NCBI GenBank assembly: GCA_001931535.1
Contig: CP016211.1
Location: 6,679,573 to 6,743,572, forward strand
From: Minicystis rosea
GTDB lineage: Bacteria; Myxococcota_A; Polyangia; Polyangiales; Polyangiaceae
Length of the DNA stretch: 64,000 nt
Direction: 5' to 3'
The number at the start of each line of letters is the position of its first letter. Within the stretch, counting starts at the first letter, position 1. The translations under genes and the position numbers were made by a program. The notes below the pieces were generated by a model. That model made no database searches. It was not told the DNA's origin and worked only from the letters and a program-made list of their open reading frames with translations. Shown piece by piece: positions 9,421 to 54,753 of this stretch.

Positions 9421-9433
9421 GTCGGAGCCACGC

Positions 9434-11386
9434 ATGCCTCTCGCCGGAAGGGTCGGAGATCGCGCCAAGTGTCCTTCGTGCAAGGAAGAAGGACCGTCGA
9501 AGCAGGGGTCGCCCCACCTGTTCATCAACAACCAGGCCGCACTGCGCGTGGGCGACACGGGCAAGCACAACGCCGGGGCGTGGAAGGCCACGAAGGGGAG
9601 CCGCTCGGTCTTCATCGACGGCATCCCCGCGCATCGCGTGGGCGACACGACGGATCACGGGCACGGCAGCGGCCAGCTCGTGGAGGGCAGCCCCAACGTC
9701 TTCATCGGTGATCGCGGCGGCGGCGCCTCCAAGCCGGTGGCGCACGATCGCACGCTGGTCGTGGGGGCGAAGGACGCGCTCGGGCGCAGCGTCTCGGGCG
9801 CCGAGGCGCACGTGACCTGCCCCCACCTCGACGATCGGGTGATCCCCTTCAGCGGCACCACCACCATCACGGGCCTGTGCAGCGGCTCGGCGGTGACGGT
9901 GAAGAAGGCGCTGCAGAAGGGCTCGTGGGACGCGCGCGCGACCAACGGCGAGATGCTGCCGGCGACGCACGCGCACACCGGGGAGGCGCCCGCGCCCGCG
10001 GCGTCGGCGGCGGGCGCGCCCGCCGGCAAGCCTGCGGCCCCGCCGGCAGCGCCGCCCAAGCCGGCGCCCGAGCCGGCGAAGCCCGCGGGCGCGCCCGCAG
10101 CGGCCAAGACCACGCCTGCGTCCACGCCGGCAGGCAAGGCCGCGGCCCCGCCTGCGCCGGCAGCCAAGCCCGCGGCGGCGCCTGCTTCCGCGCCGGCCTC
10201 GGCGAGCACGACCGCACCCGCGGCCAAGCCTGCGGCCGCGCCCGCGACTCAGCCGCTGAACCACGTGGTGCACGCGCCCGCGCCGCCGGCGACGCCCAAC
10301 GATCAGCACCAGGTGCACATCGTCCGGCCGACCACGCCCAACGCGCAGGTGCAGCTCACCACGGTGCACAACTGGGTCGAGCTCGTCTTCCGGGCCTTCG
10401 GCTACACGCTGCCGACGGCCGCGACGGAGATCGCCATCCTCGGCGTGCGCGAGGCCAGCCTCTCGGGCAAGGGCGGCGTCGACGCGCTGGAGGAGGCGGC
10501 CGCCAAGGGCGAGACCGACAAAGTCACGTTCACGCGCGAGACGCGCGACAAGGACTTCTCGACGGCGAAGACGTCGGAGCACGCGACGACGTACAACGAT
10601 CTGCTCTTCATCACCTCGACCGACTCGACGCCGGCCCACACGCAGAGCACCGACGTGTTCGAGTGCACCATCGACGCCGGCGCGACGGAGAGCGCGGAGG
10701 GGATCCCGGTCACGCTGGAGGGCAAGCTCTACAGCGGGACCCCCGGCTCCCACATCGCCAAGCGCTACCCCGGCAGCGACATCGCGCTCCACCTCTTCTA
10801 CGAGAAGGCCGGCAAGATGGCGCTCGCGCGCGAGGCCAGCAAGGCGTACCGCGTGTTCACCGAGATCGCGAGCGCCAAGAACGGGGCCACCAACTGGAAG
10901 TGGGCGCGCATCGAGGACAACGCGTCCATCCACATGCACTTCGGATCCGAGTCCGGCAAGGTCGGGAGCTGGTCGACGGGCTGCACGGTGCTGCACCACC
11001 ACCTGTTCGTGAAGAACAAGGCCGGCGCGAACGTGGAGGACTCGAAGGCCACCCGCTACAAGCGGTTCATGACGCTCTACCGGGGCGCCGCCAACAAGAA
11101 GAAGATCCCGTACCTGGTGGTCTCCAGCAAGTACGTGCGCTCCTACGCGGAGTGGGCGCGCTACGTCGGCGAGCACCCGGACGAGGCCAGCAAGCCGGCG
11201 AGCGTGATCCTGAAGGATCAGCTCGTGGCCGCCCCCGGCGCGCCGGGGCGCTACCTGCCGTCGTTCGTGACCGAGAAGTTCGCGAAGGACGTGGTGGCGC
11301 TGGCCGCCGACAAGGCGACGACCAAGCCGCACGCGGACAACCTGAAGTCGTCGCTGGATCTGGTGACGTTCACGCTCTCGCTCTGA
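9434..11386 (+). CDS. PAAR-domain protein with an L,D-transpeptidase-like C-terminus (candidate specialised effector)
   Basis: A 650-residue protein. Residues 1-~100 are a PAAR/DUF4150-type spike tip with the repeats PHLFINNQAALRVGDTG, SVFIDGIPAHRVGDTTDHG and GSPNVFIGDRGG. Residues ~105-165 form a small beta domain, and ~180-280 an Ala/Pro linker. The last ~370 residues are the cargo. In it SIHMHFGSES is followed by GKVGSWSTGCTVLHHH (residues ~508-523), matching the H...G...S-x-GC core of YkuD-like L,D-transpeptidases or related peptidoglycan-acting enzymes, with Cys as nucleophile. Type VI effectors with this fold alter cell-wall cross-links or NAD(P). The gene follows the GH19 gene closely and ends before a hairpin. 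Confidence 0.75.
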   Translation: MPLAGRVGDRAKCPSCKEEGPSKQGSPHLFINNQAALRVGDTGKHNAGAWKATKGSRSVFIDGIPAHRVGDTTDHGHGSGQLVEGSPNVFIGDRGGGASKPVAHDRTLVVGAKDALGRSVSGAEAHVTCPHLDDRVIPFSGTTTITGLCSGSAVTVKKALQKGSWDARATNGEMLPATHAHTGEAPAPAASAAGAPAGKPAAPPAAPPKPAPEPAKPAGAPAAAKTTPASTPAGKAAAPPAPAAKPAAAPASAPASASTTAPAAKPAAAPATQPLNHVVHAPAPPATPNDQHQVHIVRPTTPNAQVQLTTVHNWVELVFRAFGYTLPTAATEIAILGVREASLSGKGGVDALEEAAAKGETDKVTFTRETRDKDFSTAKTSEHATTYNDLLFITSTDSTPAHTQSTDVFECTIDAGATESAEGIPVTLEGKLYSGTPGSHIAKRYPGSDIALHLFYEKAGKMALAREASKAYRVFTEIASAKNGATNWKWARIEDNASIHMHFGSESGKVGSWSTGCTVLHHHLFVKNKAGANVEDSKATRYKRFMTLYRGAANKKKIPYLVVSSKYVRSYAEWARYVGEHPDEASKPASVILKDQLVAAPGAPGRYLPSFVTEKFAKDVVALAADKATTKPHADNLKSSLDLVTFTLSL

Positions 11387-11400
11387 GCGGCGCATCGCGC

Positions 11401-11424
11401 GGAGCGGGCTTATTGGCCCGCTCC
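11401..11424 (+). terminator. Hairpin after the PAAR gene
   Basis: A perfect 9-bp stem (GGAGCGGGC / GCCCGCTCC) with a 6-base loop, 14 bases past the PAAR stop codon. There is no T-run, so it may act as an intrinsic or RNA-stabilising structure rather than a classic terminator. It lies between convergent genes and could serve both. Confidence 0.5.
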
Positions 11425-11651
11425 GCTCCGCCCGTCGCCGTCACCAGGCCCGGTGCAGAAGCCCTCCACGCAGCGCACGTAGGCCACCCGCACGAAGCCC
11501 TCGATGCCGTCATCAGCGACGTCGTCGACGCGGGAAGGTGCGCGCCGAAGAGGCTGGCGCACGCCGTCTCGTTCATGACGGAGAGCTGACCATCATCGCG
11601 CACGCGCCGACTGTGGATGACGGCGCGTCGCGATGGGAAGCCGCACGAAAG

Positions 11652-14600
11652 CTACGGGCGCTTGCGCGGATCGGGGAGCTCGGGCGGCCAGATGCGGGCC
11701 TTGGCGTCCTCGGGCACGGGGTACTTGGCGTCGAGAGAGCTGTGCGTGTCGCCGAGGACCCAGTCGACATAGCCGACGTTCTTCGGGGTGGTGTGCGGGT
11801 TGACGACGTAGTGCTTCCCGTCGGCGCTGGCGTCGAACTCGCGGCCGCCGTTGTACGCGCGGACGGCGGCGCGGATGATGACGCCTTCCGGGGGCTGCGG
11901 CAGATTGGGATTGGCCTTGCGCAGCTTGGCGATCAGGCGGCGCCCCGTGGGCAGCTTGGCCGAGTTGAAGTGCTGGATGCCGCTCACCACGTTCTTCCGC
12001 CAGTCCCAGAAGATGCGCGGATGGAAGTTGCTGGGCGTGGTGATCCGATCCGCCGGCCACTTCCACTCGTCCTCCTCGGGATCCTGCTGCGCGATGCCGG
12101 TGCCGGCCGGCGGCCCGTAGCGGACCTCGCCCTTCTTGAACTGAGCGAGCGTGTGCTCCGACTCGTGGCAGAACATGCGCAGGAAGAGCCAGGCGAGATC
12201 GCCGGCGTTATCGACGATGTACTGCTCGACCTGGGCGCGCGGCCCGTTCTTGCCGAGCACCTTGAGCCCCTTCAGCACCTTGACCGCGGTGATGTTGCCG
12301 AGCTCGGGCCCGCCTTCGAAGGTGGCCTTGATCTCGAGATCACCGCCGACGATCTCCGCCGGCGTGAGGCGCACCTTCTGCTCTTGGTTGGGCTTGGTGC
12401 GCGCAGTGCCGGCCGCGTACTTGAACTCCTGCCAGCGGTAGCCCGTCGTCTTGGACGAGTGATCGCGGACGCGGTACTTGCCGGAGATGGAGAACTCCCA
12501 GCGCACCGAGCCCACGCTCGTCTCCTTGCCCTCGACCAGCACCTTGGCGAGGAGCGTGACGAGCGGCATCGAAGGCTCGGGCCCGGGGTAGGTGCCGGGA
12601 TCGATCTCGAGCGTGGTGGGGACCACCGGCGAGACGATCTCGACGGCGACGGGGACCGCGTGATCGGTCGGCTTGGCCTTCGCTGCCTGCTGCGAGGGCG
12701 TGGTGCCCACCGGGATGGCCGGCTTGGTCTCGGGCTTCGGCGCGGGCGCCGGCTTGGCCTCGGGCTTCGCGGCGGGCGCGGGCGCAGGGGCCTTCGGCGC
12801 GGGTGCGGGCGCAGGGGCCTTCGGCGCGGGCGTGGCCGGCTTGGCGGGCGGGTCGCCGATCTTGATCTGGTACGGGCCCGGCTTGTCGACGGGGATGCGC
12901 ACCTGGCCGGCACCGTCGGTGGCGTGCGGCGCCGACGTCGAGCCGTCCGCGTGCTCCAGGTGAACGCGCGCGCCCGCCAGCGGCTGGCCGCCGTCGGATG
13001 CGAGGCGGAACCACACCACCTGCTCCGCGGGCGCCGGTGCCTTGGTGGCGTCGGCGGCCTTGGTGATCTTGGGCGGGTTGATCTGCACGTACGGCGTGCC
13101 CTGGATGTTCACCTCGCCGCCCGCCACGAAGCGGACCTCGTGCTGCGCGGTCACCGTGATGTCCGGCCCGTCGAGCATGATGGTCGCGCCGCCCGTGGTG
13201 AGCGTGATGCGCTTGGCGATGATCTCGCGCCGCGTGTCCAGCGGGGTCACCTTGGGCTGGCCGATCTCGCCGGTGTTCGCCGCGGTGACGCCGGCCATCC
13301 GCACTTCGTGCATGCGGCCCGCGCTGATGGTGTCGACGGCGGTGATCTTGGTGTCGAGGTGACGGCCGACGGCGGCGGTGGTGTTGCCTTCGATCTTGTC
13401 GACCTCGGCGGCCACGACGACCTTCTCGAGATCACGCTCGGAGCGGAGCGTGACCAGCTCCTTCCCGGCCGCGTCGTCGAAGCTGAGCTCGTGGTAGCCC
13501 GAGGAGCGCGGCGTCGATCGCGTGCGCCAGGCGAAGCGCGTCTTGCCGCCGGGCAGGTTGGTGGGCGCGGGGTTCTCGGCGTCGAAGAGGCGGCCGACGA
13601 TCACCGGCTGATCGGGGTTGCCCTCGTAGAAAGAGACGAGGACCTCCTGCCCGACGCGGGGGATGGCGATCATCCCGAAGCCGGCGCCGGCCCAGCCCTC
13701 GGCCACGCGCACCCAGGCGAAGGCGCGGTCGTCGAGGGCGGCCTCGCGATCCCAGTGGAAGCGCACGCGCACGCGGCCGTGCTCGTCGGTGTGGATCTCT
13801 TCGCCGGCGGGGCCGACCACGATGGCGCTCTGCAGGCCCTCGATGCGCGGCCACGGCACGCGCCGCGGCGGGCGCACCTTGGCCGTGGCGAACGAGGCCA
13901 CGACGTGCACCGTCCAGGCCTGGTCGACGCGGCCGTCGATGTTGGTCTGCACCACCAGGAGGCGCTGATCGTGGGCCAGCTCGGGGCGCGGCGCGCCCGA
14001 GATGCTGAACACCGTGCCGGGCGAGAGGTCGACGAGGTTGGTGGTGATCTCCACGCGGCGCCGGCCCTCGCGCAGCGCCGCCTGCCGGCGCTCGGCGAGC
14101 GCATAGCCCTGCGCCTCCGAGGTGCGGGCGTAGCCGTGATCGTCGGCGACCGGCGTGTCGTTGGCCTTGTTCGCGGCGGCGGGCAGCTCGGCCAGACCGG
14201 AGCCGGGCGCGTAGGTGTAGCGCTCGAGGCGCGCCTCGCCCGGCCCCGCCTGCTCCGAGTGGTACACCACCGGGAAGCGCGGGCGGCGGAAGTCGAAGTC
14301 GGCGATGGTGACGGCGCCCGGCTTCACCTCCAGCGCGACGTGGACGTCGGCCGCGAAGGGGTGGGCGATCGTCGGGCTCGGCTCGCTCGTGAAGGGGATG
14401 CTGTGCGACCGCGGCTCGGCGCGCTCGGGCGCGTCGGTGATCACGAGCTTCCCGGGGCCCTCGATGGTCTCGTCGAAGTAGTAGCCGAGGCCCGCCTCCT
14501 CGAGCAGCCGCGAGACGAAGTCGAGGTCGGTCTCGCCGTACTGCACGCGAATCTCGTGGCGCGCCAGGTTCTCCTCGGTGACGCGCGCGGTGATCTCGAT

Positions 14601-38279: not shown

Positions 38280-39023
38280 CCGAACGCGCTTCGGCTTCCG
38301 CGCGGAAGGCGCCTTCGCCGCCGGCTCGCGGCGGCTTGCAGGCTTTGCCCGCGGCGTCACCAGAATGCCTTTCAGGAGCGCTTCGAGCGCCCATGAGACA
38401 CGACCCGGCCCCGAGAGGAGGTCGTCGCGCGCGGCGAAGATCCGCGGATGGTCCTTTTCCGAAACAGCCCCGATCACGCGCGCGATCGGCCCCAAAGCGT
38501 CCTCACCTTCGCGGCGATGGCTCTGCTCCGCGGCGACGGCCGTCACGTACAACGTGAGCAGGTCGACGGCCCACGCGGCGGTCGCGCGATCGACCCCGCC
38601 TTCGTCGAGGTGACCGAGGAGCGCCTCCGTGATGCGCAGCGCATTCGGACCGGCCGCCACGGTGCCGAGCGCGAGCGACGCGAGGCCCGGCGTGTCGAAC
38701 AGGACCTGAAGATACGACGTGAGGAGCGCCGTGATGCGGCGCTGCCAGCCTTGCCCGCGGGCGCCGTCTGTCTTCACGTCGGAGAGCGCGCGATCGAGGA
38801 CGAGGGCCTGAAGCTCCTGGAGGTTCTCCACGTAGACGTAGAGAGAAGCGGGGCCCGTATCGAGCGCCGACGCGACCTTGCGGAGGCTCATCCCCTCCGG
38901 CCCTTCTCGCCGGAGCAGCTCGAGCGCCGCCGTCACGATCGCATCGCGGCTCAACGGCTCCTTCGCGGGGCCTCCGCGACGGCTCGTGACCTCCGGGGCT
39001 TGAAACGGGTTCCGACTCCCCAT
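38277..39023 (-). CDS. TetR-family transcriptional repressor
   Basis: A 248-residue protein. Residues ~25-70 contain the TetR helix-turn-helix (LSRDAIVTAALELLRREG, MSLRKVASALDTGPASLYVY). The C-terminal ligand domain follows (ITALLTSYLQVLFDTPGLAS), ending in a Lys/Arg/Pro tail. The palindromes 19 bases before its start and 53 bases before the monooxygenase make autorepression and control of that enzyme very likely. The ligand is probably the enzyme's substrate. Confidence 0.92.
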   Translation of the reverse strand: MGSRNPFQAPEVTSRRGGPAKEPLSRDAIVTAALELLRREGPEGMSLRKVASALDTGPASLYVYVENLQELQALVLDRALSDVKTDGARGQGWQRRITALLTSYLQVLFDTPGLASLALGTVAAGPNALRITEALLGHLDEGGVDRATAAWAVDLLTLYVTAVAAEQSHRREGEDALGPIARVIGAVSEKDHPRIFAARDDLLSGPGRVSWALEALLKGILVTPRAKPASRREPAAKAPSARKPKRVR

Positions 39024-39041
39024 GCCCGATCATTATTCGTC

Positions 39042-39056
39042 ACGAACAGTGTTCGT
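39042..39056. promoter_or_regulatory. Palindromic operator upstream of tetR
   Basis: ACGAACAGTGTTCGT, matching the site at 38099-38113 base for base as its reverse complement. It sits 19 bases before the TetR start codon, overlapping where the promoter should be. Confidence 0.85.
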
Positions 39057-39132
39057 CAAGCCCGGAGATGAAGAGGTCGTCCCGGCGCGCGGCAGCCTCG
39101 ACGCTCCCGCGATCGTCGAGAAATGCGTCGGC

Positions 39133-39924
39133 CTACCAGTCCGACGTGCACTCGTTGTCGCGGAACTTGCGACAGATGCAGCCGTTGTCCGCATCTGGGT
39201 TCGTCGGGTCGTGCGTGGAAGGACAAGGCATGGTCCCGCGGCCGGGGAAGTACGGGTTGCCGCAGACCGCGGTGCAGAGCGGCTTGCTCAGGTCCTTCGG
39301 CGCGTCGCCGCTGAAGTACACGAGGGGCTGCGGGGTGCCGGGTGTCCACGCCACGGTCAGCACGCGCGCGAAGTCGCTCCACACGAACTCGACCCTCGCC
39401 TTCGTCTGCCGCCGGATCGGGAACACGATGCTCGCCAGCGTGCCCGGCTTGGTCATGTCGTAGAAGTCCGGAAGCTTCGCGCTGGGCTCGATCCAGCGAA
39501 GCTCCTTGATCTGGCTGGCAGAGTCTTCCGTCGTCCGGCAGCTCACGCGCAGCCACTCGCGCGCGGACTTGACCTCGCACCCGAGGCGCTTGGCGTTCTT
39601 CACCTCGATCTCGGACGCCGCCGCCCACTCGGCCACGGTGGGCGGCTTCGACGGCGTCTCCGGAGGATCCCACTTGCTCGGCGTCAGGTTAGGCAGCACC
39701 GCGACGACGCTCGCGCTCGGTGCGGGCGTCGCGGTCTTGACGGGAGCGGCGCTCGCCGTCGCCGCCGTCCGCTGCGCCTCCGGCGCGGGGGCGGCCTGCT
39801 GCTTCGGAGTCGCGTCGCAGCCCGCCGCGCCCGCGAGCGCCACCGATGCCACCAGCGCAACCCGCGACCACGCGGGCCATCGACCATCGCGCGGCCTCCG
39901 TCCTTCGCAGCGTCGCTCGATCAT
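39133..39924 (-). CDS. Lipoprotein of unknown function with a Cys-rich end
   Basis: A 263-residue protein. A basic start (MIERRCEGRRPRDGRW) leads into ALVASVALAGAAGC, a lipobox with Cys at ~36. An Ala/Pro/Thr spacer follows, then a folded part with PPTVAEWAAASEIEVKNAKR, ARVEFVWSDFARVLTVAW and TPQPLVYFSGDAPKDLSKPL, ending with CTAVCGNPYFPGRGTMPCPS and a Cys-rich tail (CICRKFRDNECTSDW). No family recognised; envelope location is inferred from the lipobox. It is divergent from the serpin gene. Confidence 0.75.
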   Translation of the reverse strand: MIERRCEGRRPRDGRWPAWSRVALVASVALAGAAGCDATPKQQAAPAPEAQRTAATASAAPVKTATPAPSASVVAVLPNLTPSKWDPPETPSKPPTVAEWAAASEIEVKNAKRLGCEVKSAREWLRVSCRTTEDSASQIKELRWIEPSAKLPDFYDMTKPGTLASIVFPIRRQTKARVEFVWSDFARVLTVAWTPGTPQPLVYFSGDAPKDLSKPLCTAVCGNPYFPGRGTMPCPSTHDPTNPDADNGCICRKFRDNECTSDW

Positions 39925-40131
39925 CCACGCAAGCTATCACGCGCCGCCGCGGCGATGCTGCAATCGCGCCGGCCCACGGCCACGATGAGCCTCGCCACGG
40001 AGCGTGCGACGCGCCTTCGCGAACGGCGGTGTAATGCCTTGCCGACGAGCGACGTTGTCGATGTGGACGTGCAGTCGTCGCCGATGGACGATGTCGACGT
40101 TCGGCACGAGCCCTCCACCCCGGAGATCTTC

Positions 40132-41382
40132 ATGGCCCGTTTCCTCGCCGTTCTCGCGTTCATCCCGGTCGTGCTCGCGGCGTGCAAGTCGGGCATCCCG
40201 GTCGACGAGAGCCCCGTCACGACGCCGCCGTCCGCCGAAGAGCTCACGGCCTTGGCGAAGAGCAACAATGCCTTCGCGATCGATCTCTACGGAAAGCTGC
40301 GTGTCTCGAAAGGCAACCTCGCTTTCTCGCCGACGAGCATCTCGACCACGCTCACGATGGCGTGGGCCGGCGCCCGAGGCGAGACGGCCGCGGAGATGAA
40401 GGCGGCCCTCCATGTCGACACCACCGCCGCCGAAGCCGGCGCAGCCGCAGGCAAGCTCTTCGGGAGCTACCGCGCGTCCAACGCCGACGTCACGCTGCGC
40501 GTCGCCAATCGTCTCTTCGGCGACAAGAGCTTCTCGTTCGACCCCACCTATCTCGCGCTGACGCGAGGCACCTTCGGCGCGCCTCTCCATCCACTCGACT
40601 TCAAGGGCGACGCCGACGGTAGCCGCACGCTCATCAACGACTGGGTGGCGGGGCAAACCAACGATCGCATCAAAGACCTCTTCCCGCCGGGCGCCATCAA
40701 GCCGCAAGCCACGCTCGTGCTCACCAATGCCATCTGCTTCCTCGGCAAATGGGTGACGCCGTTCCCCAAGAACATGACCCGGCCAGCCACGTTCCACGTC
40801 ACCGCCACCGAGAGCCACGACGTGCCGACGATGCATGTGAAGGAGCATTTTCGCTTCGCCGCCGTCGACGGGCTGAAGCTCCTCGAGATGCCCTACAAGA
40901 GCAGCGATCTCGCGATGACGATCATTCTGCCCGACGCGAGAGACGGCCTCGAAGCGGTGGAGAAGCAGCTCTCGCCGGCGACGCTCGACCGCTGGCTTCT
41001 CGACCTGGCCGCAGATGAAGTCAACGTGTCGCTTCCCACCTTCACCATCGATCCCGCCGAGCCGATGGCCCTCGACGAGCCGCTCTCGGCGCTCGGCATG
41101 TCCCGCATGTTCGATCCCGGCGCGGCCGATTTCACCGGCATGGCCAGCCCACAGAGCGATCGACTCTTCGTCAGCCGCGTGTTCCACAAGGCCTTCGTGA
41201 AGGTGGACGAGCAGGGCACCGAGGCTGTCGCCGCAACAGGGGCCACCATCAGTCTGGTAACGGCACGCGCGGCACCGCCCCCCGAATTCCACGCCGATCA
41301 CCCATTCCTCTTCCTTTTGCGCGACACGCGCTCCGGCATCGTCCTCTTCATCGGGCGCATCACCGATCCTGCCAAGCGCTGA
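40132..41382 (+). CDS. Serpin-family protease inhibitor, lipoprotein form
   Basis: A 416-residue protein from MARFLAVLAFIPVVLAACKS, preceded by GGAGA; the in-frame extension upstream is rejected. The lipobox LAAC lipidates Cys 19. The serpin fold is clear: NLAFSPTSISTTLTMAWAGA, KDLFPPGAIKPQATLVLTNA, VNVSLPTFTIDPAEPMALDE and HKAFVKVDEQGTEAVAATGA, the hinge of the reactive loop, ending PPPEFHADHPFLFLLRDT. The small-residue hinge suggests an inhibitory serpin. By counting from the hinge the P1 residue would be the Val in SLVTAR, or the Arg three residues on, since the loop is about four longer than in antitrypsin. Surface defence against predators' or own proteases is a fair guess. Confidence 0.92.
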   Translation: MARFLAVLAFIPVVLAACKSGIPVDESPVTTPPSAEELTALAKSNNAFAIDLYGKLRVSKGNLAFSPTSISTTLTMAWAGARGETAAEMKAALHVDTTAAEAGAAAGKLFGSYRASNADVTLRVANRLFGDKSFSFDPTYLALTRGTFGAPLHPLDFKGDADGSRTLINDWVAGQTNDRIKDLFPPGAIKPQATLVLTNAICFLGKWVTPFPKNMTRPATFHVTATESHDVPTMHVKEHFRFAAVDGLKLLEMPYKSSDLAMTIILPDARDGLEAVEKQLSPATLDRWLLDLAADEVNVSLPTFTIDPAEPMALDEPLSALGMSRMFDPGAADFTGMASPQSDRLFVSRVFHKAFVKVDEQGTEAVAATGATISLVTARAAPPPEFHADHPFLFLLRDTRSGIVLFIGRITDPAKR

Positions 41383-42834: not shown

Positions 42835-43830
42835 ATGGTACGTCGACAGGCTCACGAAGAGCCCATCTCCAATCGAATCGTGGCGGATCTCGCGCGCCGC
42901 ATTTCGTCGGGCGAGCTCAAACCCGGGGACAGGGTCCCGTCGACACGACAGATCATGCGCCGCTGGCGCGTCGCCATGGCGACCGCGACGAAAGCGCTGA
43001 CCGCATTGCAACGCGAAGGGCTGGTGCGCTCGATCCGCGGCTCGGGTTGCGTGGTGGCGGGGAAGCGAACGATTCGGGACGCCCGCAGACCCAAAAAGGC
43101 GGAACCGGGGCAGCTCACGCGAGAGAGCGTCGTGCGCGTCGCGATCGCGATCGCCGATGGTGAAGGCTTGGGCTCCGTCTCGATCCGGCGAGTCGCGATG
43201 GAGCTCGGTGCTGCTCCCATGGCGATCTATCGCCATGTTCCGAGCAAGGAGGATCTGCTGCAAAGCATGGCCGAGATGGTGATGGGCGAAGCCGGTCTGC
43301 CGACGCACGCGTGCGCGGGCTGGAAGGAACGCCTCGATGCGATCGCGCGGCTGCAGTGGAGCATCTACAAACAACACGCGTGGCTTGCGCAGGTCTTCTC
43401 ATCCACGTTCAGTCGTCCGACGGTCGCTCCCAACGCGATGGCTCACACCGAGTGGATGCTCGCCGCGATCGGTGGATTTCGACTCGGGGGCACCGAGCGC
43501 CTGCACTTGGCGACCACGCTCACCGGGTACGTGCAGGGCACGGCGTTGAAGCTCGTCTCGGAGGTCGACGCGCAATCGGAGACCGGCGTGTCGCGAGAAG
43601 AGTGGCTACGCGCCGCAAGCGCCGCCGTCGATGCCTACATTCAATCCGGAAAGTGTCCCGAGCTCGGGCGCGCCCTCGCCGAGGGCGCGGACCTCGATCT
43701 CGACAGCCTTTTCGATTTCGGCCTATGCCGGTTGCTCGACGGCTTCGCCGATTTCATCGAGCGCCGTTCGGATTCAGAGCTTCGTCGCGGACACCGACAT
43801 GAGAGAGAGCGCGAGTCAGCGCGTAAGTGA
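42835..43830 (+). CDS. GntR-TetR fusion transcriptional regulator
   Basis: A 331-residue protein with two DNA-binding heads. Residues ~10-80 are a GntR winged helix (PISNRIVADLARRISSGELK, VPSTRQIMRRWRVAMATATK, ALQREGLVRSIRGSG). Residues ~95-145 are a TetR head (LTRESVVRVAIAIADGEG, VSIRRVAMELGAAPMAIYRH, VPSKEDLLQ). The rest is a TetR_C-type ligand domain (WMLAAIGGFRLGGTERLHLA). The start follows GTAAGGAG. Tandem CACTAGTG palindromes immediately upstream suggest autoregulation and control of the divergent 42280 operon. Confidence 0.9.
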   Translation: MVRRQAHEEPISNRIVADLARRISSGELKPGDRVPSTRQIMRRWRVAMATATKALTALQREGLVRSIRGSGCVVAGKRTIRDARRPKKAEPGQLTRESVVRVAIAIADGEGLGSVSIRRVAMELGAAPMAIYRHVPSKEDLLQSMAEMVMGEAGLPTHACAGWKERLDAIARLQWSIYKQHAWLAQVFSSTFSRPTVAPNAMAHTEWMLAAIGGFRLGGTERLHLATTLTGYVQGTALKLVSEVDAQSETGVSREEWLRAASAAVDAYIQSGKCPELGRALAEGADLDLDSLFDFGLCRLLDGFADFIERRSDSELRRGHRHERERESARK

Positions 43831-45478: not shown

Positions 45479-45904
45479 CTAGGCCGCCTGGGCCACGCCC
45501 GGAACCTGCGCGTCAGCCGAAGGCTCGGTCGCCTTCGACGGGAGCTTCCGCGATGCCGGCCGCAGCGCCCAGGATGCGACCGTGAGCGCCAGGATCACCA
45601 GCGGGGCGGCGATCTTGTCCGCGCCATCGCCCGAGGCCGCGTGCGAGAACGCCGCGCCGCTGAGGTCGAAGGCGATGCCCGCGTAGGCCCACTCCTTCAG
45701 CCGCGGAAAGCCCGGCGCGAGCACGGCGATGCCGCCCAGGAGCTTCCAGACGCCGATGAGCAGCGCGAAGTACAGCGGGTAACCGAGGTGGCGCATGATC
45801 GTCTGGATGTCTGCGACGCGGCCGGCGTCCAAAGCGCCAGTCGAGAGCATGACGAACGCCACCAGCGCGGTGGTGATCCAGTAGCCGATGTTCTTGTTCT
45901 TCAT
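45479..45904 (-). CDS. DoxX-like membrane protein
   Basis: A 141-residue, four-helix membrane protein: IGYWITTALVAFVMLSTGAL, IMRHLGYPLYFALLIGVWKL, PRLKEWAYAGIAFDLSGAAF and AAPLVILALTVASWALRPAS. The HLGYP motif and GVWKLLGGIAVLAPGFPRLK are typical of the DoxX_2/DoxX-like family, linked to thiosulfate or organic redox stress. It lies 21 bases downstream of ohr in the same direction; likely an operon. Confidence 0.88.
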   Translation of the reverse strand: MKNKNIGYWITTALVAFVMLSTGALDAGRVADIQTIMRHLGYPLYFALLIGVWKLLGGIAVLAPGFPRLKEWAYAGIAFDLSGAAFSHAASGDGADKIAAPLVILALTVASWALRPASRKLPSKATEPSADAQVPGVAQAA

Positions 45905-45925
45905 GTGCGTTGCTCCTGGCCGTGC

Positions 45926-46342
45926 TCAACCGACGGACAAGCTCACGTCGATGTTCCCGCGCGTGGCCTTCGAGTACGGGCAGGTCTGATGGGCGGCTTC
46001 GACCAGCGAACGCGCGGTCTGGGCATCCAGTCCGGGCAGGCTCACGTGAAGCCGCGCCCGCAGCTGGAAGCCATCCTGCGCCAGACCCAGGTCGACCTCG
46101 GCGTCGACCGCCAGCTCCTTCGGCAGCGCGATCTTTTGCGTCGCCGCCACATGCTGAATCGCCCCCATGAAGCAGGCCGACCAGCCTGCCGCGAACAGTT
46201 GCTCCGGGTTGGTTCCGTTTCCGGGCGCACCGGGCGGGGTGAGCTGGACATCGAGCCGACCATCGTCGCTGCGTGCAGTGCCGTCCCGCCCTCGCGTAGT
46301 GTGCGTGCGAGCCGTGTAGAGAATCTTTTCCATCTTCGTCAT
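45926..46342 (-). CDS. ohr: Ohr/OsmC-family organic hydroperoxide resistance protein
   Basis: A 138-residue protein from MTKMEKILYTARTHTTRGRD. The peroxidatic Cys is in GWSACFMGAIQHVA and the resolving Cys in EAAHQTCPYSKATRGNIDVS, both in the Ohr spacing. Family proteins reduce organic hydroperoxides using lipoylated or thiol donors in the cytoplasm. A longer frame upstream is not used. A decayed second copy lies at 49970-50118. The upstream region matches the 3' end of the large regulator at 50247, showing the ohr-regulator junction was duplicated. Confidence 0.92.
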   Translation of the reverse strand: MTKMEKILYTARTHTTRGRDGTARSDDGRLDVQLTPPGAPGNGTNPEQLFAAGWSACFMGAIQHVAATQKIALPKELAVDAEVDLGLAQDGFQLRARLHVSLPGLDAQTARSLVEAAHQTCPYSKATRGNIDVSLSVG

Positions 46343-46500
46343 GACCTTTTCTCCAATCGCATCCGGTCCGCTCGGCTCGAGCTCGAATTCGAGCATCGGA
46401 TGCACGAACAGCAGTAGTCGGTGATGGCGACGCCTGACCAATCATCCCGTGTGAGCCCGCGTCAGGTGCTGTTAGCGGGCGCGGAGCGTGCTTAGGAGAA
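46341..46500. repeat. Direct repeat, left copy (ohr upstream region)
   Basis: About 160 bases nearly matching 50117-50277 (CGCTCGGCTCGAGCT, GCAGTAGTCGGT, CCAATCATCCCGTGTGAGCC shared). It includes a decayed match to the last codons of the regulator gene. Together the copies bracket 46501-50116. Confidence 0.8.
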
Positions 46501-46606
46501 GGCCAATTCAGCGCGTCGACGACTCCCACGCTGCCGCGCAGCGCGGCGCCCTCCTACCTGGGGGCGTTTCGCGCATCACCCAGTGGGGTGTACGATCCGC
46601 CGACCG

Positions 46607-46774
46607 TCAGCGGGTGTCTTTCCGCGAGCGGAACAGGCCGAAACCCTCGAGCAGCCGGAGGTGCTGGAGGAACCACGGCAGCACCATGTCGAAGGGTTTG
46701 GCGAGCACAGCCATCCGCGTCGGATCGGCCAGAGCGTGAAACACGCGATCGCGTTGCGCCGATTGATTAGGCAT
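46607..46774 (-). pseudogene. Miniaturised ArsR-family regulator
   Basis: A complete 55-codon frame: MPNQSAQRDRVFHALADPTR, MAVLAKPFDMVLPWFLQHLR, LLEGFGLFRSRKDTR and stop. This is the winged helix of an ArsR repressor, but ~13 residues between PTRMAVL and AKPFDM (normally a helix and turn, ...GPxSVSEL) are missing, and so is the C-terminal wing. The clean in-frame loss suggests a deletion remnant, although a tiny expressed protein cannot be excluded. It precedes the hydrolase gene in the same direction. Confidence 0.6.
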
Positions 46775-46794
46775 GCAACGCACGACCTATCTAC

Positions 46795-47862
46795 TTACAC
46801 ACGCGATCCTGCGAGTCGGTTGGCGTCGATGACCGCGCGGGCGAAGGCTTCGGGCGCCTCCTGTGGCAGGTTGTGCCCAATCCCTGCGCTGACGATGCGG
46901 TGCTCATACTTGCCCGAGAACTTCCCGGCGTAGGACGCGGCCGCCGGGTGCGGCGCGCCATTCGCGTCGCCCTCCAGCGTGATGCTCGGCACTTGGATGT
47001 TCGGTGCCTGGCCGAGCCTTCGCTCGATTTCGTCGTACTGCGCTTCTCCCTCCGCCAGGCCGAGGCGAAAGCGATAGTTGTGGATCACGATCTCCACGTG
47101 ATCGGGATTGTCGAAGGCTGCGGCGGTGCGCTCGAAGGTCGCCTCGTCGAACGACCAGCGCGGGGAGGCGAGCTGCCAGATCAGCTTGGCAAACTCGCGG
47201 GTATTCGCCGCATAACCGGCGCGACCGCGCTCGGTGGCAAAATAGAACTGATACCACCAGTCGCGCTCGGCCTGGGGCGGGAGCGGCCGCCTGTTCGCGT
47301 CGCGACTCCCGATCAGGTAGCCGCTGACCGAGACCATGGCTTTGCAGCGCTCCGGCCAGAGCGCGGCCAGGATGTTCGCGGTGCGCGCTCCCCAATCGCA
47401 ACCAGCGATGATCGCGCGCTCGATCCTCAGGGCGTCCAGAAGCGCGAGAGCATCGGCGGCCAGCGCCGCCTGCTGACCGTTGCGCGGGGCCTCGCCGCTG
47501 CGAAACCGGGTCGCACCGTAGCCGCGCAGATAAGGGACGATCGCGCGGTAGCCCTGCCCTGCCAGGATCGAGCTCGCGTCTGCGTAGGTGTGGATGTCAT
47601 AGGGCCAACCATGGAGGAGCAGGACGGGAGTACCGTTGGCGGGGCCGGCCTCGGCGTAGGCCACACGGAGCGCGCCGGCATCGATCTGTTTCAGGTCGCC
47701 GAACCCGGATCGGGGGCCCCTTGCAGCCGCCGGCGCAGACGCGGGTGGCGCCGTTTGGGCGCAGCCCGCGTGCAGGAACGCGGAGGCTGCTCCCAGCAGG
47801 GCCTGGCCGAGAAACCGGCGGCGCGGCTCGCCGGCAATCTGGAGAGTGACGCGATCATTCAT
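46795..47862 (-). CDS. Secreted alpha/beta hydrolase (epoxide-hydrolase-like)
   Basis: A 355-residue protein with a Tat-like signal (GEPRRRFLGQALLGAASAFL, then AGC). The hydrolase core has VLLLHGWPYDIHTYADASSI (oxyanion HGWP), the nucleophile Asp in IIAGCDWGARTANILAAL, a cap domain with WWYQFYFATERG, and the catalytic His in SAGIGHNLPQEAPEAFAR. Asp instead of Ser at the nucleophile fits epoxide hydrolases and haloalkane dehalogenases. It forms a block with the aldehyde dehydrogenase and SnoaL-like genes. Confidence 0.9.
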   Translation of the reverse strand: MNDRVTLQIAGEPRRRFLGQALLGAASAFLHAGCAQTAPPASAPAAARGPRSGFGDLKQIDAGALRVAYAEAGPANGTPVLLLHGWPYDIHTYADASSILAGQGYRAIVPYLRGYGATRFRSGEAPRNGQQAALAADALALLDALRIERAIIAGCDWGARTANILAALWPERCKAMVSVSGYLIGSRDANRRPLPPQAERDWWYQFYFATERGRAGYAANTREFAKLIWQLASPRWSFDEATFERTAAAFDNPDHVEIVIHNYRFRLGLAEGEAQYDEIERRLGQAPNIQVPSITLEGDANGAPHPAAASYAGKFSGKYEHRIVSAGIGHNLPQEAPEAFARAVIDANRLAGSRV

Positions 47863-47947
47863 GCTTGCTTCTCTTGTCGATTGAGCGTGGAACGTCGGAG
47901 GCGGCGAGCGGGTTTGCTGGCCGCGTTTCGCGGATCAAGAGCTGCGG

Positions 47948-49366
47948 TCAACCATCGATGATGGCCTTCAGCTCCAGATGATCCTCGATGCCATAGACGC
48001 CGTATTCGCGCCCGATGCCCGACTCTTTGAAGCCGCCGAAAGGCGCGAGCGGCTCGTGCGTCAGGCCGTTGATCGCGACGCGGCCGGCGTCCACCCGCCC
48101 GGCCAGGAGGCGCGCGCGCGCGCGATCCTGCCCGAGGACGTAGGCATGGAGCCCGTAGGGCGTGTCGTTGGCGATCGCGAGAGCGTGATCCTCGTCGTCG
48201 TAGGCAATCACGCAGAGCACCGGCCCGAAGATCTCCTCGCGCGCGATCCGCATGTCGTGGGTCACGTCTGCGAACACCGTCGGCTTGACGAAATAGCCGC
48301 GGCGCAGGCCGTGCGGCCGCCCTTCGCCGCCCAGCACGAGCCGTGCTCCTTCGGCGATCCCGGCTCGAATGTAGGCCTGAACGCGTTCATACTGCCGCTG
48401 GTTGACGAGCGGCCCCAGCGTCGTGTTTGCATCACGCGGATCGCCGGGGACCACGCTGGTCACCGCCCGCGAAAGCGCCGCACAGAAGGCCTCGACCCGC
48501 GCTCGCTGGACCAGGATGCGCGTGCCGGCGATACACGCCTGACCATTGTTGGCGAACCCGATCGCGAGCGCTTGGGTCGCCGCCTGCGCGAGATCGGCGT
48601 CCTCCATGACGATGGTCGGCGCCTTGCCGCCGAGCTCGAGCGTCACACGCGTCAGTGCATCGGCCGACTTGCGCAGGATCGCCTTGCCGATCGCGTTCGA
48701 CCCCGTGAAGGAGATCTTGCGGACGTCCGGGTGACCGGTCAGGGCCTCGCCCACCACGTCGCCGCGTCCGGCCACGACGTTGATGACCCCAGCGGGAGCG
48801 CCGGCGGCGTGCAGGCACTCGGTGAAGAGCTGGCTTTGCCAGGCGCTGAATTCGCTCGGCTTGACGACGATCGTGCAGCCGGCCGCGAGCGCGCCCGCCA
48901 GCTTGACGCTGATCGCGTTGTACACGCTGTTCCAGGGGACGATGTGCACCGCGACGCCGACCGGCTGTGCGACCACCTCGACGTTGTTGATGCGACGCGT
49001 GAAGGCGAAGTCTTCGAGCAGCTTCGCGGCAGCGACGAAGTTGCCGGCCGCGAGACCGGCGCGCCAACGCGCCTGCTCCACGGGCCCGCCATACTCGACA
49101 ATGGTTGCCTCGGTCAGCTCGTCCCGGCGCGCGCGCACGGCATCTGCCAAAGCATGGAGGAGGGCGATGCGCTCCTTGCGGTCGGTGCGCGAAAACCCGG
49201 CGAACGCTCGTTTCGCGCTGGCGACGGCGAGCTTCGCGTCCTCGTCGTCGGCCATCACGAGCACGCCGGCCGGCTCCTCGGTCGTGGGATTGACGAGCGC
49301 GAGCTCCTCGTGGCCGTGCGCGCGGCCGAAAGCGCCGTCGATGTAGACTTGGTCGAACCTTCGCAT
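47948..49366 (-). CDS. NAD(P)-dependent aldehyde dehydrogenase
   Basis: A 472-residue enzyme. Motifs in order: the cofactor region VHIVPWNSVYNAISVKLAGA, KPSEFSAWQSQLF, FTGSNAIGKAILRKSADAL, the Glu in LELGGKAPTIVMEDADL, the catalytic Cys in NNGQACIAGTRILV (~275), and the C-terminal PFGGFKESGIGREYG. It oxidises aldehydes to acids. The substrate is not evident; the neighbouring hydrolase and SnoaL-like genes on the same strand suggest a small catabolic unit. Confidence 0.95.
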   Translation of the reverse strand: MRRFDQVYIDGAFGRAHGHEELALVNPTTEEPAGVLVMADDEDAKLAVASAKRAFAGFSRTDRKERIALLHALADAVRARRDELTEATIVEYGGPVEQARWRAGLAAGNFVAAAKLLEDFAFTRRINNVEVVAQPVGVAVHIVPWNSVYNAISVKLAGALAAGCTIVVKPSEFSAWQSQLFTECLHAAGAPAGVINVVAGRGDVVGEALTGHPDVRKISFTGSNAIGKAILRKSADALTRVTLELGGKAPTIVMEDADLAQAATQALAIGFANNGQACIAGTRILVQRARVEAFCAALSRAVTSVVPGDPRDANTTLGPLVNQRQYERVQAYIRAGIAEGARLVLGGEGRPHGLRRGYFVKPTVFADVTHDMRIAREEIFGPVLCVIAYDDEDHALAIANDTPYGLHAYVLGQDRARARLLAGRVDAGRVAINGLTHEPLAPFGGFKESGIGREYGVYGIEDHLELKAIIDG

Positions 49367-49402
49367 CAGTACCTCCTTGTCGTCGTGTCAGCTTGTCGTG
49401 TG

Positions 49403-49873
49403 TCAGGCAGGCGATCGGAGCTCGAAATCGAGGACACCCAAGACGTAGCGCTGGTGCAGGACGCGCCCGTCGATCCGCCATGCGCCGTTCGCCCGAACGA
49501 AGCTCAGCTCGTAGCGGCCGCCGATGGTCGCGTGCTGCTGCCGACCGTGCGAGGTCGCAGCGATCTCGACCACCACGTCGATCCGCGCCGTGGCCCGAGC
49601 CCGATGGGTGTCGACGCGGACGATCGGATTGGCGAGCTTGTGATGCGTCCAGTCGGTGCGCGAGAGCCTCGCAATCGCCTGCCTCGCATACTCTTCAGCG
49701 GGTATCGTCGCGGTGAGACCGCCCGGCGACCCGCTCTGCACGGTGTCCGCGAAACACACTCGATACGCAGTCTCGTCGCGGTCGTCGCTCGCCTGCGCCA
49801 ACCGGGCGACGAGGCGCAAGATCGCCAGCTCGTCGGCCGACGGATCGCCTCCGTCTCTCTCGTCGTGGGCCAC
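49403..49873 (-). CDS. SnoaL-like (NTF2-fold) protein
   Basis: A 156-residue protein. ADELAILRLVARLAQASDDR and DETAYRVCFADTVQSGSPGG open the fold, and GRYELSFVRANGAWRIDGRV followed by LHQRYVLGV closes it, as in SnoaL_4 ring-hydroxylating-dioxygenase beta-like proteins. These act as small isomerases/cyclases or binding proteins. It is 36 bases upstream of the aldehyde dehydrogenase and probably starts this operon. Confidence 0.85.
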   Translation of the reverse strand: MAHDERDGGDPSADELAILRLVARLAQASDDRDETAYRVCFADTVQSGSPGGLTATIPAEEYARQAIARLSRTDWTHHKLANPIVRVDTHRARATARIDVVVEIAATSHGRQQHATIGGRYELSFVRANGAWRIDGRVLHQRYVLGVLDFELRSPA

Positions 49874-49969
49874 TTCGCTCTCCTCGCAGCGTCGAGAGAG
49901 AGCTGTACCCGGAGCGACGGCGGCACACCCGTTAGACGCTGTGATCCAGTGTTGGCGAGCTGGCCGTGC

Positions 49970-50118
49970 TCAAACGATGAGCCAGCTCACGTCGATGTCC
50001 CCGCATGGCCTTCGAGCAGGGGCAGCTCTGATGGCGACATCGACCAGCGAGCCCGCAGTCTGGGCCTCCAGTCCGAGCAGGCTCACGTGCTGCCGCGCCT
50101 GCAGCCGGAAGCCATCAT
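49970..50118 (-). pseudogene. Decayed second copy of ohr
   Basis: A minus-strand frame, DGFRLQARQHVSLLGLEAQT through CGDIDVSWLIV, mirrors the C-terminal third of Ohr (DGFQLRARLHVSLPGLDAQT...GNIDVSLSVG). The N-terminal ~80 codons with the peroxidatic Cys are deleted and the resolving CPYS is changed to APAR. It lies next to the right direct repeat. Confidence 0.8.
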
Positions 50119-50277
50119 GACCTTTCTCCGATCGCATCCGGCCCGCTCGGCTCGAGCTGAAGCTCGAGCGCCGGATGCACGATCAGCAGTAGTCGGTCGT
50201 GGCGACGCCTGGCCAATCATCCCGTGTGAGCCCGCGTTAGGCGCTGTTAGAGGGCGCGAAGTGCGCTTAGGAGCAGG
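50117..50277. repeat. Direct repeat, right copy (regulator 3' end and ohr leader)
   Basis: Counterpart of 46341-46500. It covers the last ~10 codons of the regulator gene and the former ohr leader. The repeat pair brackets the ArsR remnant, hydrolase, aldehyde dehydrogenase and SnoaL genes. Confidence 0.8.
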
Positions 50278-53174
50278 TCGGCAGCGCGCACGTCGGCGGT
50301 GTCCGCTCCCTCCGAGAACTGCGCCCTGACGCGCTGCAAGCGCTCGTGTGCCTCGGCGGCGCGGCCTTGCTGCTGCCACAGCCGCGCAAGGTCGATCGTG
50401 GCGCGCAACTCCCAGGCGCGTGCCCCTTGGCGCTGGCTGTGGTCGACCGACTCGAGCAGCCACTCCTCGGCCCGCAACGGGTCAGCAGCGACGCCTTGCT
50501 GTGCGGCCCGTGCCTTGATGCGCAGCAACTCGGGGCGCGCGAGCCCCTCGCCGTCGTCCTGACAGCGAGCGATGGTGGCATTCACCAGCTCGAGCGCCTC
50601 CTCGTATCGGCCACAGAGCGTGAGGCCCTCGGTGAGCGCGGCCTCGAACGAGGTGGTCAGGAGCTCGTAGCGAGCGGCGTGCAGTCGAGCGAGGCTCTCC
50701 TCGATCCAGGTCAGGGCCTCCCGAGTCTCCCCTCGATGCACCATCAGCTGCCCGCGAAAGCCGCTGGACGCCGTGATGTACGGCTCGAACCCGTTCACTT
50801 CGGCGCGATTGGCGAAGGTGTCGAGGGCCGACTCGGCCTTCGCCAGGTCGCCCGTCCAGAGGTACACCGAGAGCATCCAGATCAGCGCGATGCACTCGGT
50901 GATCGGGTGCTCCAGCACGGCCGCTTCGCGCACGGTTCGTTCCGCCGTGCGCCGCGCTTGATCCGCATGGCCTTGCAGCCAGAGCGTGCGCGCGAGGGCA
51001 ATGCCCGAACGGTTTCGATGGTCGAAGCCGTAGTAGATGGTCCGCTCGCGCTTCGAGGGCAGGCTCTTGCGCAACGACAGCGAAAGCTCGCGGTGCGCGC
51101 GGCTTTGGTCTCCAGCCAGGTGGTGGGAGATGCCCGCGAGCGAGGCAGCGACCGCCGTCGCTTCCGGCTCGCCGATCGCTTCGGCAACCTCCACTGCCGT
51201 GGTGGCCCAGGCGAGGGCAGTCTGGAAGTCCCCGATGCGCTCGTGGAAGATGTGCAACCGTCCCAAGAGCCGCAGCTGATTCCAGCGATCGCCGAGGCTT
51301 ACCGCCACGTCCAGGGCGCGGCGCAGCGCGACGTCGGCGGCCGGGGTGTTGCCGCGCGTGAACATGAGCGACAAGCCCAGCGCGGCCTGGAGCTCGAGCT
51401 CGATCGCAGTGCCGCGCTGGTCAGGGGCGAGCTGTGCGGCGGCGCGGGCGCACCACGTCCGACACTCGACGAGCAGCGAGAGGTTCAGGAACACCGGCGC
51501 GCTCGCTGCTGCGAGCGCGATTCCGATCGAGAGGTCCCCGCCTGGTTCGAAACACCAGGCCAAGGCGCTGCGGATGTTGCCGAGCTGGTCGGAGAACTGC
51601 GCCGCTCCATCCTGCGCGCCGAGGAGCGCCGGCGCAGCCACCTCGAGCGAGCGCAGAAGCGAACGCAGAAAATAGCTGGCGTGGCGGCGCGCGGCGGCGC
51701 GAAGCTCCTCACTGCCGTGGGCGAGGAGCTTCTGCCGGGCATAGGCCCGCGTCATCTCCAACAGGCGATATCTGGCATCGCCGTGCGTCGGGATGAACGA
51801 GAGCAGGGATTTGGCCGTGAGCTGGTCCAGCGCCCTCACGGCCGTGTCCGGTCCCATGGTGTCGTCCGCAATCACCTCTTGCGCCGCGTCCATGGAGAAC
51901 GGACCGAGGAACAGCGAGAGCCGCTCCAGGCTGCGCTGCTCCGGCTCGGAGAGCAGGTCGTAGCTCCAGTCCAAGGTTGCCTGGAGTGTCTGCTGGCGCG
52001 GAAGCGCGGTCCGGCGCCCCGTCCAGCCGAGACTGAAACGCTCTCCCAGGAGCCGCGCGGTCGCGTCGACCCCGTGCGTCGCCACGCGCACTGCCGTGAG
52101 CTCGATCGGCAACGCCATGCCATCGAGGCGTCGGCACATGTCGGCGATCGAGCGCGCGGCCTCGAGCTCGATTTCGAGCGTGCTGTTGGCAGCTGCGGCG
52201 CGCTCCACGAACAGCTCGATGGCCGGATAGGCGAGCAGCTGCTCGAGCGAGAGTCCCTCCGTGACGGCCGGGTAGCCCAGGGAACCCAGCCAGTGCACGT
52301 GCTCTCCGCGTGCGCGCAGCGGCTCACGGCTCGTAGCCAGGACGCTCACCTGCGGCGCAGACTCGGTCAGTCGCTCGAGCATCGCCGAGACTGCGTCGAT
52401 CAGGTGCTCGCAGTTGTCCAACAGGAGCAGCAGCTTCTGCGCCCGGATGTGACCCAGCAGCACCCGCATCGGGTCTTCCACCTGGACCGCGATGCCGAGC
52501 GCCCCCGCGATGGCCGACGGGATGAGCGCGGGATCTTCCAGCGCGCCCAAGTCGACGAACGCGACCTTTCCCCCGAAGCTCGCCGAGAGCGCGTGGCCGA
52601 TCTCGACGGCGAGCGTCGTCTTGCCGACACCGCCCGCTCCCACGATGGTGAAGAGCCGCGTGTCCGAGAGGCGCTGGGTCAGCAGGTCGACGTCGTGATC
52701 CCGGCCGATCAAATGCGTCAAGCGTGCGGGAAGACTCCCCGCGCGAGGCGTCTCCGCGGGCTCGTGCTGCGCTTCCGGTCGCTCGCACGACGCGCTCGAC
52801 GGCGAGTGGTCCGGCAGCGGTAGTCGCTGCACCGGCGCGACGAAGGCGTAGCCGACCCCGACCTGAGTCGCGATGTAGCGGGCGCCATTTTCACCGTCGC
52901 GCAGGATCTTGCGCAGACCGGCCATGTGAAATCGCAAGCTGCCGTCTTCGATGACGACGTCGGGCCACACGCGCTTCAACAGCTCATCTTTCGAGTGCAC
53001 GCGGCCGGGCTGTTCCACGAGCACCGTGAGCAGATCGAGGGAGCGCCCACCAATCTCGACGCGCACCCCATCTCGCGTGAGCAGCCGTTCACTCGGAGTA
53101 AGGCAGAATGCGCCAAACGTGACTCGTCCAATTCGTTCAGGCGGCGCCATCTCTTTGGAAACGCGATCGACCAA
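50247..53174 (-). CDS. Large regulator: OmpR-type wHTH, STAND/NB-ARC ATPase and TPR repeats
   Basis: A 975-residue protein. Residues ~15-110 form a winged helix (RSLDLLTVLVEQPGRVHSKD, ELLKRVWPDVVIEDGSLRFH, ending YIATQVGVGYAFVAP). Residues ~150-430 are a STAND ATPase: LIGRDHDVDLLTQRL, P-loop IVGAGGVGKTTLAVEIG (~175-191), LLLLDNCEHLIDAVSAMLER and the GLPL-like LDGMALPIELTAVRVA. The C-terminal ~500 residues are helical TPR-like repeats. Such proteins are signal-triggered activators. The duplicated junction shows it once sat directly upstream of ohr, so control of peroxide defence is plausible. Confidence 0.92.
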   Translation of the reverse strand: MVDRVSKEMAPPERIGRVTFGAFCLTPSERLLTRDGVRVEIGGRSLDLLTVLVEQPGRVHSKDELLKRVWPDVVIEDGSLRFHMAGLRKILRDGENGARYIATQVGVGYAFVAPVQRLPLPDHSPSSASCERPEAQHEPAETPRAGSLPARLTHLIGRDHDVDLLTQRLSDTRLFTIVGAGGVGKTTLAVEIGHALSASFGGKVAFVDLGALEDPALIPSAIAGALGIAVQVEDPMRVLLGHIRAQKLLLLLDNCEHLIDAVSAMLERLTESAPQVSVLATSREPLRARGEHVHWLGSLGYPAVTEGLSLEQLLAYPAIELFVERAAAANSTLEIELEAARSIADMCRRLDGMALPIELTAVRVATHGVDATARLLGERFSLGWTGRRTALPRQQTLQATLDWSYDLLSEPEQRSLERLSLFLGPFSMDAAQEVIADDTMGPDTAVRALDQLTAKSLLSFIPTHGDARYRLLEMTRAYARQKLLAHGSEELRAAARRHASYFLRSLLRSLEVAAPALLGAQDGAAQFSDQLGNIRSALAWCFEPGGDLSIGIALAAASAPVFLNLSLLVECRTWCARAAAQLAPDQRGTAIELELQAALGLSLMFTRGNTPAADVALRRALDVAVSLGDRWNQLRLLGRLHIFHERIGDFQTALAWATTAVEVAEAIGEPEATAVAASLAGISHHLAGDQSRAHRELSLSLRKSLPSKRERTIYYGFDHRNRSGIALARTLWLQGHADQARRTAERTVREAAVLEHPITECIALIWMLSVYLWTGDLAKAESALDTFANRAEVNGFEPYITASSGFRGQLMVHRGETREALTWIEESLARLHAARYELLTTSFEAALTEGLTLCGRYEEALELVNATIARCQDDGEGLARPELLRIKARAAQQGVAADPLRAEEWLLESVDHSQRQGARAWELRATIDLARLWQQQGRAAEAHERLQRVRAQFSEGADTADVRAADLLLSALRAL

Positions 53175-53848: not shown

Positions 53849-54753
53849 ACGATTGAGAAGTGGAAGATCTACGAGAAGCGGCAGGTGCCGACGCACCCGC
53901 TCATCGGCGTCACGACGCTCAACGCGCTCAACGAGGGTGTGTCGTCGCTGCGCCGTCCACCCGATCACGTGCTCGATGCGAGTCGTCCCCCGGGGATCGG
54001 CGATTTGACCGAGCGGTTGCTCATCGAGAGCTACGCGCCCACCTGCGTCGTCGTCGACGAGCACTACGACATCCTCTACGCGCATGGGCGCACCGGCCGG
54101 TACCTCGAGCTGCCGGCGGGCGAGCCGCACCTCAACGTCCTCAAGATGGCGCGCGAGGACCTGCTCCACGAGCTCCGCACCGCGCTGCACAAGGCGATGA
54201 AGGAGCGGACGACCATCGCGCGCGAGCGCGTCGTCATCCGCGAAAATGGAAGCCGTCGCTTCGTGCGCATCGGGGTCAAGCCGTTCCGCGGAGCGCGGGC
54301 CTCGCAGATGCTCCTTCTCGTGACGGCGAGCCCTTCGCGCACGGAAACGTGTTCCTCGCCCCGCGCGACCGGCACCTCTTGTTCGAGGACGGCATGTTCC
54401 GCCTGGGCCGCGGGCCCAAGCAGCACTTCGTCCGGCCCGCGGTGGACGTGCTCTTCGAGTCCGCGGCCAAGGCTCACGGCCGGCGCGTCGTCGCCGTGGT
54501 GCTCTCCGGGGGCGGCTTCGACGGCGCCATGGGGGCTCTGGCCATCAAGCGCGCCGGCGGAATCGTGCTCGCACAGGATCTCGAGGACGCCGACATCCCA
54601 TTCATGCCGATGCACACCATCCAACGCGATCACGTCGATGCGGTGCTCCCGCTTCCCAAGTTGATCGAGGCGATCACGGCGCTTTCGGCGGGCAAGGAGA
54701 TCGAGGCGAACGAGAAGGTGTCTCGTCCGCACCGCGCTCGCGAGCTCGAATGA
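53849..54753 (+). pseudogene. Decayed chemotaxis gene: PAS segment joined to a CheB methylesterase end
   Basis: Two plus-strand frames. Up to ~54310 the frame reads LTERLLIESYAPTCVVVDEH, YDILYAHGRTGRYLELPAGE and LLHELRTALHKAMKERTTIA, the PAS-linker segment of CheB-CheR-PAS fusion proteins. From ~54318 another frame reads HGNVFLAPRDRHLLFEDGMF, RPAVDVLFESAAKAHGRRVV, VLSGGGFDGAMGALAIKRAG and DADIPFMPMHTIQRDHVDAV, the C-terminal half of a CheB methylesterase domain. The active-site Asp of CheB (DG after SGGG) remains, but its N-terminal Ser/His parts are lost. The order PAS then CheB is reversed from intact fusions, so a deletion or rearrangement occurred. Confidence 0.75.

Follow-up and report, generated by a model that had tools for sequence, protein, structure and literature searches.

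The chromosome of the soil bacterium Minicystis rosea is a single contig of 16,040,666 bp, and the window, meaning the whole analysed stretch of 64,000 nucleotides, covers its positions 6679573–6743572. The locus considered here contains a large regulator gene, hereafter REG, an intact and a decayed copy of an ohr gene, and a block of metabolic genes between two direct repeats. Its features, in window coordinates, are the following:

45479–45904, minus strand: gene for a DoxX_2-family small membrane protein (doxX), next after the intact ohr (PF13564, E 2e-23)
45916–46502, no strand assigned: left repeat, with the REG 3' end (about 12 codons), leader and ohr, by sequence comparison
45926–46342, minus strand: intact ohr, an Ohr-family peroxidase of 138 aa (TIGR03561)
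46460–46475, minus strand: left candidate REG operator, CTAAC-N5-CTGAC, a 10-bp direct repeat (pattern scan; putative function)
46607–46783, minus strand: probable ArsR-family remnant, a 58-aa ORF (NF033788 below cut-off, no Pfam match)
46795–47862, minus strand: alpha/beta hydrolase, epoxide-hydrolase-like (PF00561, E 1.2e-16)
47948–49366, minus strand: aldehyde dehydrogenase, ALDH (PF00171, E 2.6e-148)
49403–49873, minus strand: SnoaL_4-domain protein (PF13577, E 3.2e-16)
49960–50277, no strand assigned: right repeat, with the decayed ohr (49960–50120), leader and REG 3' end, by sequence comparison
50235–50250, minus strand: right candidate REG operator, CTAAC-N5-CTAAC, overlapping the REG stop codon (pattern scan; putative function)
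50247–53174, minus strand: REG, a 975-aa regulator with an OmpR-type winged helix, a STAND/NB-ARC-type ATPase and TPR (Pfam)

The REG-ohr junction has been duplicated at this locus. The preliminary description had reported a close match between 46341–46500 and 50117–50277, each copy carrying the 3' end of the regulator and the ohr leader, with about 3.8 kb that recombination between them could remove, and the sequence agrees on every count: a repeat search of the window returned a core of 155 nt that is 88% identical (46348–46502 versus 50123–50277) at a spacing of 3,775 bp. The repeat is longer than had been claimed and also takes in the 3' part of ohr, as a search of the whole genome with window positions 45900–46520 recovered both the leader part of the right repeat (88%, E 7.7e-52) and a match of 45916–46078 to 49960–50119 (85%, E 1.0e-43), giving a full extent of 45916–46502 versus 49960–50277 at 85–88% identity. 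The same genome search found no third copy, and a short extra match corresponds to a separate ohr paralogue at 11.29 Mb. The left repeat, read on the minus strand, consists of roughly 12 terminal codons of REG with its stop, the leader and the complete ohr, while at the right repeat REG is intact over its 975 aa. The block is flanked exactly by the repeats, whose ends are sharp. Since the ends are directly repeated, and a crossover in the leader would place the intact ohr and doxX behind REG, restoring a REG-leader-intact ohr-doxX arrangement, the block could be imagined as an element that excises actively and lets the locus alternate between REG-ohr-doxX and its interrupted state. However, the repeats diverge by 12–15% and their longest perfect match is 25 bp, therefore excision, although possible on paper, should be rare, and there is no recombinase among the annotated genes, which makes a switching element very improbable indeed.

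The left ohr scores 171.9 bits against TIGR03561 (cut-off 88.85) over residues 8–137, and its translation contains SACF and QTCPYS motifs, which were equated by eye with the catalytic cysteine pair; in the part of PMC3107159 that describes the Ohr family, the active-site cysteines form a conserved pair. No MarR-family gene lies beside the window ohr, as none of the 41 MarR_2 matches in the genome falls in the window. The genome's other ohr (11.288 Mb, 11287992–11288782) is preceded, at a distance of about 0.2 kb, by a MarR-type gene, with which it likely forms a classical OhrR-Ohr pair, and because of this difference in neighbourhood the two ohr genes are probably under different control.

The right ohr has no complete open reading frame. 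As the preliminary description had maintained, a decayed ohr lies behind the right repeat: about 265 bp including the start are gone, by a deletion that appears by eye to be joined at a 2-bp TC overlap, and gaps of 2 and 1 bases add frameshifts. In the shared part of the gene, left and right copies differ at 4/49, 11/51 and 7/50 sites of codon positions 1, 2 and 3, and the third-position share is thus 7/22 (0.32), compared with a mean of 0.68 and a lowest value of 0.33 in 95 non-independent pairs of functional ohr genes of 80–90% identity, drawn from the 64 usable of 80 loci. Among the 18 differing gap-free codons 16 are non-synonymous, and polarizing these against an outgroup consensus assigned 11 changes to the right copy, 1 to the left and the other 4 to neither, a group of four that includes both codons at the deletion join. 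These codon-position counts and the outgroup polarity show that the right ohr decayed neutrally, without constraint, a pattern more in keeping with a duplicate arising within the lineage than with import of a functional allele.

Relatives were sought among 183 genomes of the order, a set that includes no congeneric genome. In G153, a member of the same family, a REG homologue (58%) is followed directly by ohr without the block; relatives carrying both copies and no empty site, which would have spoken against the preliminary description, are therefore not what G153 represents, as its REG-ohr is single-copy. A second Polyangiaceae genome, G152, provides a parallel case. At its REG locus (L157, 1.04–1.058 Mb, at 9704–9820), REG is followed by an internally deleted ohr with about 39 recognisable bp. 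In a relocated copy elsewhere (L132, 8.308–8.323 Mb, at 7158–7706), some 20 terminal codons of REG are joined to the leader, an intact ohr and, as the next gene, one named DUF308-like by eye. Together with the window this gives two genera in which the REG end and ohr persist away from REG and the REG-attached ohr decays. The G152 and G153 copies are about equally distant (82–88%), hence the G152 duplication may be older than the split of these genomes and may have been followed by reciprocal loss.

REG itself matches PF00486 (E 6.4e-15) and PF13424 (E 1e-13), and weakly PF13401/PF00931. Proteins resembling it at E<=1e-100 occur in 4 of the 183 genomes. In a tree, the window protein, G418, G153a and G152a form one clade with 100/100 support and no settled inner order, and REG of the window shares 70% identity with the protein of G418, an order-mate of Bosea; horizontal exchange between the Rhizobiales and myxobacterial groups is likely. 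More distant paralogues are also present: three lie in tandem elsewhere in M. rosea (3843392–3851701) and are 35–36% identical to REG, and in G152 (L207, 5.849–5.867 Mb, at 8422–12608) a hydrolase homologue (58%) is divergent from another REG paralogue (35%), which adds one more link between REG-type proteins and the hydrolase.

In a Rhizobiales sample, where 15 of 21 listed places with REG homologues were read, ohr (at least 60% identity) is found at 9 of the 15 loci and the hydrolase (at least 61%) at all 9 of these. In 7 of the 9, REG and ohr lie next to each other in divergent orientation, and a Bosea locus (L079) has the order REG-hydrolase-other gene-ohr. From the side of ohr, the hydrolase lies within the flanks of 46 of the best 80 loci. 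The window likewise holds the REG homologue, ohr and the hydrolase in one locus; to our knowledge, this REG-ohr-epoxide hydrolase neighbourhood has no established name. The arrangements differ in that the Rhizobiales REG is mostly divergent from an ohr-hydrolase pair, whereas all genes in the window are co-directional, and the window adds a second ohr, ALDH, SnoaL and doxX. As a conserved neighbour of both genes in other bacteria, the hydrolase belongs with the REG-ohr functional neighbourhood, and, judged by this usual partnership in Rhizobiales, the block is not simply a foreign passenger. Peroxide and electrophile detoxification would be a role common to the genes of the locus.

Regarding the gene content given in the preliminary description, Pfam supports the hydrolase, the aldehyde dehydrogenase and the SnoaL protein, but the ArsR remnant is weak, with residues 13–28 only matching the ArsR/SmtB model NF033788 (24.5 bits against a cut-off of 55). 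At E<=1e-12 SnoaL is matched among the 183 genomes of the order solely by the M. rosea genome itself; it was found neither on plasmids in a plasmid search nor in seven ohr-bearing genomes. Close relatives of the ALDH are rare in the order (best 53%), and in G152, G153 and G001 the surroundings of the hydrolase homologues contain neither gene. This rarity of SnoaL and of close ALDH relatives fits a separate acquisition. The restriction of SnoaL to this one genome of the 183 also lends some weight to a different origin, in which circular or concatemeric DNA carrying a REG tail-ohr unit and the block entered a resident REG-ohr-doxX locus by a single homologous crossover and left the homology as repeats. 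Such an event would account for the sharp repeat ends that flank the block exactly and for G153 as the block-free site, and relatives of the hydrolase are common on rhizobial plasmids. On the other hand, the neutral nature of the left/right differences argues against long-separated functional alleles, no replication, integrase or transposase gene is found among the ten annotated window proteins, and the window contains no tRNA, so that the block shows neither the transposase or integrase nor the tRNA target that mark insertion-sequence or integrase-borne elements. We consider the crossover unlikely, but a serious contender.

A third possibility is that a tandem ohr pair came first and the block was inserted between its members later, by an unrelated event. 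A short tandem duplication would suffice, and G152 demonstrates that ohr units are copied and moved, but neither joint showed an insertion signature, and the scenario offers no account of the ArsR-like gene, which is truncated and lies near the REG tail; this order of events is accordingly rated as improbable.

The preferred reading, to which we assign a probability of roughly 0.55, is a duplication of REG-ohr within the lineage, after which the second unit was stripped of its REG body and its ohr replaced the original one, which decayed. Following duplication of the REG-ohr unit, the right ohr, attached to the intact REG, would have lost selection and acquired the start-removing deletion and the frameshifts. 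In the left unit the REG body would have been lost down to approximately its last 12 codons, with leader and ohr kept and doxX now next to them, and the REG tail would most likely have been retained since it adjoins the ohr control region, that is, the 10-bp repeat and the leader. This route by loss of the second REG body is conjectural: tblastn and blastn searches of the joints and of the region upstream of REG detected no remnant of a REG body and none of a second block, and a tblastx comparison of the block with the upstream region gave only sum-statistics noise, thus the larger duplication is not directly seen. The earlier proposal of a duplication around the block holds for the regulator-ohr junction and is conjectural for the entry of the whole block.

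The control region may offer a clue to what was retained. A scan of 12 sequences with a relaxed CTAAC-N5-CTAAC pattern gave two matches in the 64-kb window, each at a REG end, and one match at the corresponding place in the REG-ohr region of G153, in that of G152 and in the relocated G152 copy. The 10-bp repeat is thus present near the REG end in 5/5 myxobacterial copies, with no further match in any of the sequences, the other eight included. The left candidate operator is imperfect (CTGAC), though the left ohr is the intact one. Between REG and ohr, seven Rhizobiales loci have in common CTCACAACTTCTCACAA-n5-AACGGG, or a near variant of it, with a 10-bp lag, and in a lag-10 shuffle test six of the seven gave p<=0.018 (p 0.46 in L195), while the two window copies were non-significant (p 0.40 and 0.19). 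Direct repeats with a period of about 10 bp are the type of site bound by PhoB-type winged helices. The 10-bp-phased direct repeat at the REG stop is therefore possibly the REG operator and is best taken as a lead, and REG may regulate the adjacent ohr, on the basis of linkage and this candidate repeat. Two other explanations of the leader were considered. It contains GCCTAAC-like cores as in an integron attC site, but the partner GTTRRRY box is absent by eye, and this reading was rejected. A structured RNA leader is not supported, with no Rfam match and fold z values of -0.16 (left) and -1.95 (right).

Among the closest known systems is the OhrR-ohr pair, such as Sinorhizobium meliloti SMc00040, where, in the relevant part of PMC3107159, ohr lies beside a putative regulator and sites are in the intergenic leader. 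OhrR, however, belongs to the MarR family, whereas REG is a winged-helix/STAND/TPR protein, and a literature search at the level of result lists returned no recognisable description of a REG-type regulator of ohr. The locus also resembles other cases of duplication and loss of one copy, in having direct repeats with one copy constrained and the other decaying neutrally, and differs from ordinary ones in its recurrence in a second genus, where the edge of the REG tail is similar. Taken further, and as a less likely possibility, REG may be a so far unrecognised regulator that acts independently of OhrR on a second class of ohr-hydrolase detoxification operons common to Rhizobiales and Polyangiaceae. 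In myxobacteria its operator would lie at the end of the REG gene, and operator, leader and ohr might form a portable unit that has repeatedly been copied out and has replaced the original ohr.

The M. rosea genome was the largest bacterial genome when published, and gene duplication is named a main mode of its growth, as stated in excerpts of PMC8436480. The present locus gives a well-resolved example, within that genome, of duplication with decay. The duplication itself is ordinary, and the parts worth keeping are REG, the Rhizobiales neighbourhood and the recurrence in G152. The wider value is that a large sensor-type regulator, itself uncharacterised, is linked in a testable way to peroxide/epoxide detoxification, with a candidate operator and with G152 as another instance of the rearrangement.

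Elsewhere in the window, two overlapping frames at 53860–54753 (plus strand) appear by eye to be pieces of one PAS/CheR-CheB-type protein, probably a frameshifted pseudogene, and the stretch 53885–54664 alone has no Pfam match. The C-terminal part of an ORF at 39022–41382 (plus strand) is serpin lipoprotein-like by eye. Finally, a protein encoded at 42835–43830 (plus strand) combines GntR HTH, TetR HTH and TetR C-terminal domains, which is an unusual regulator fusion.
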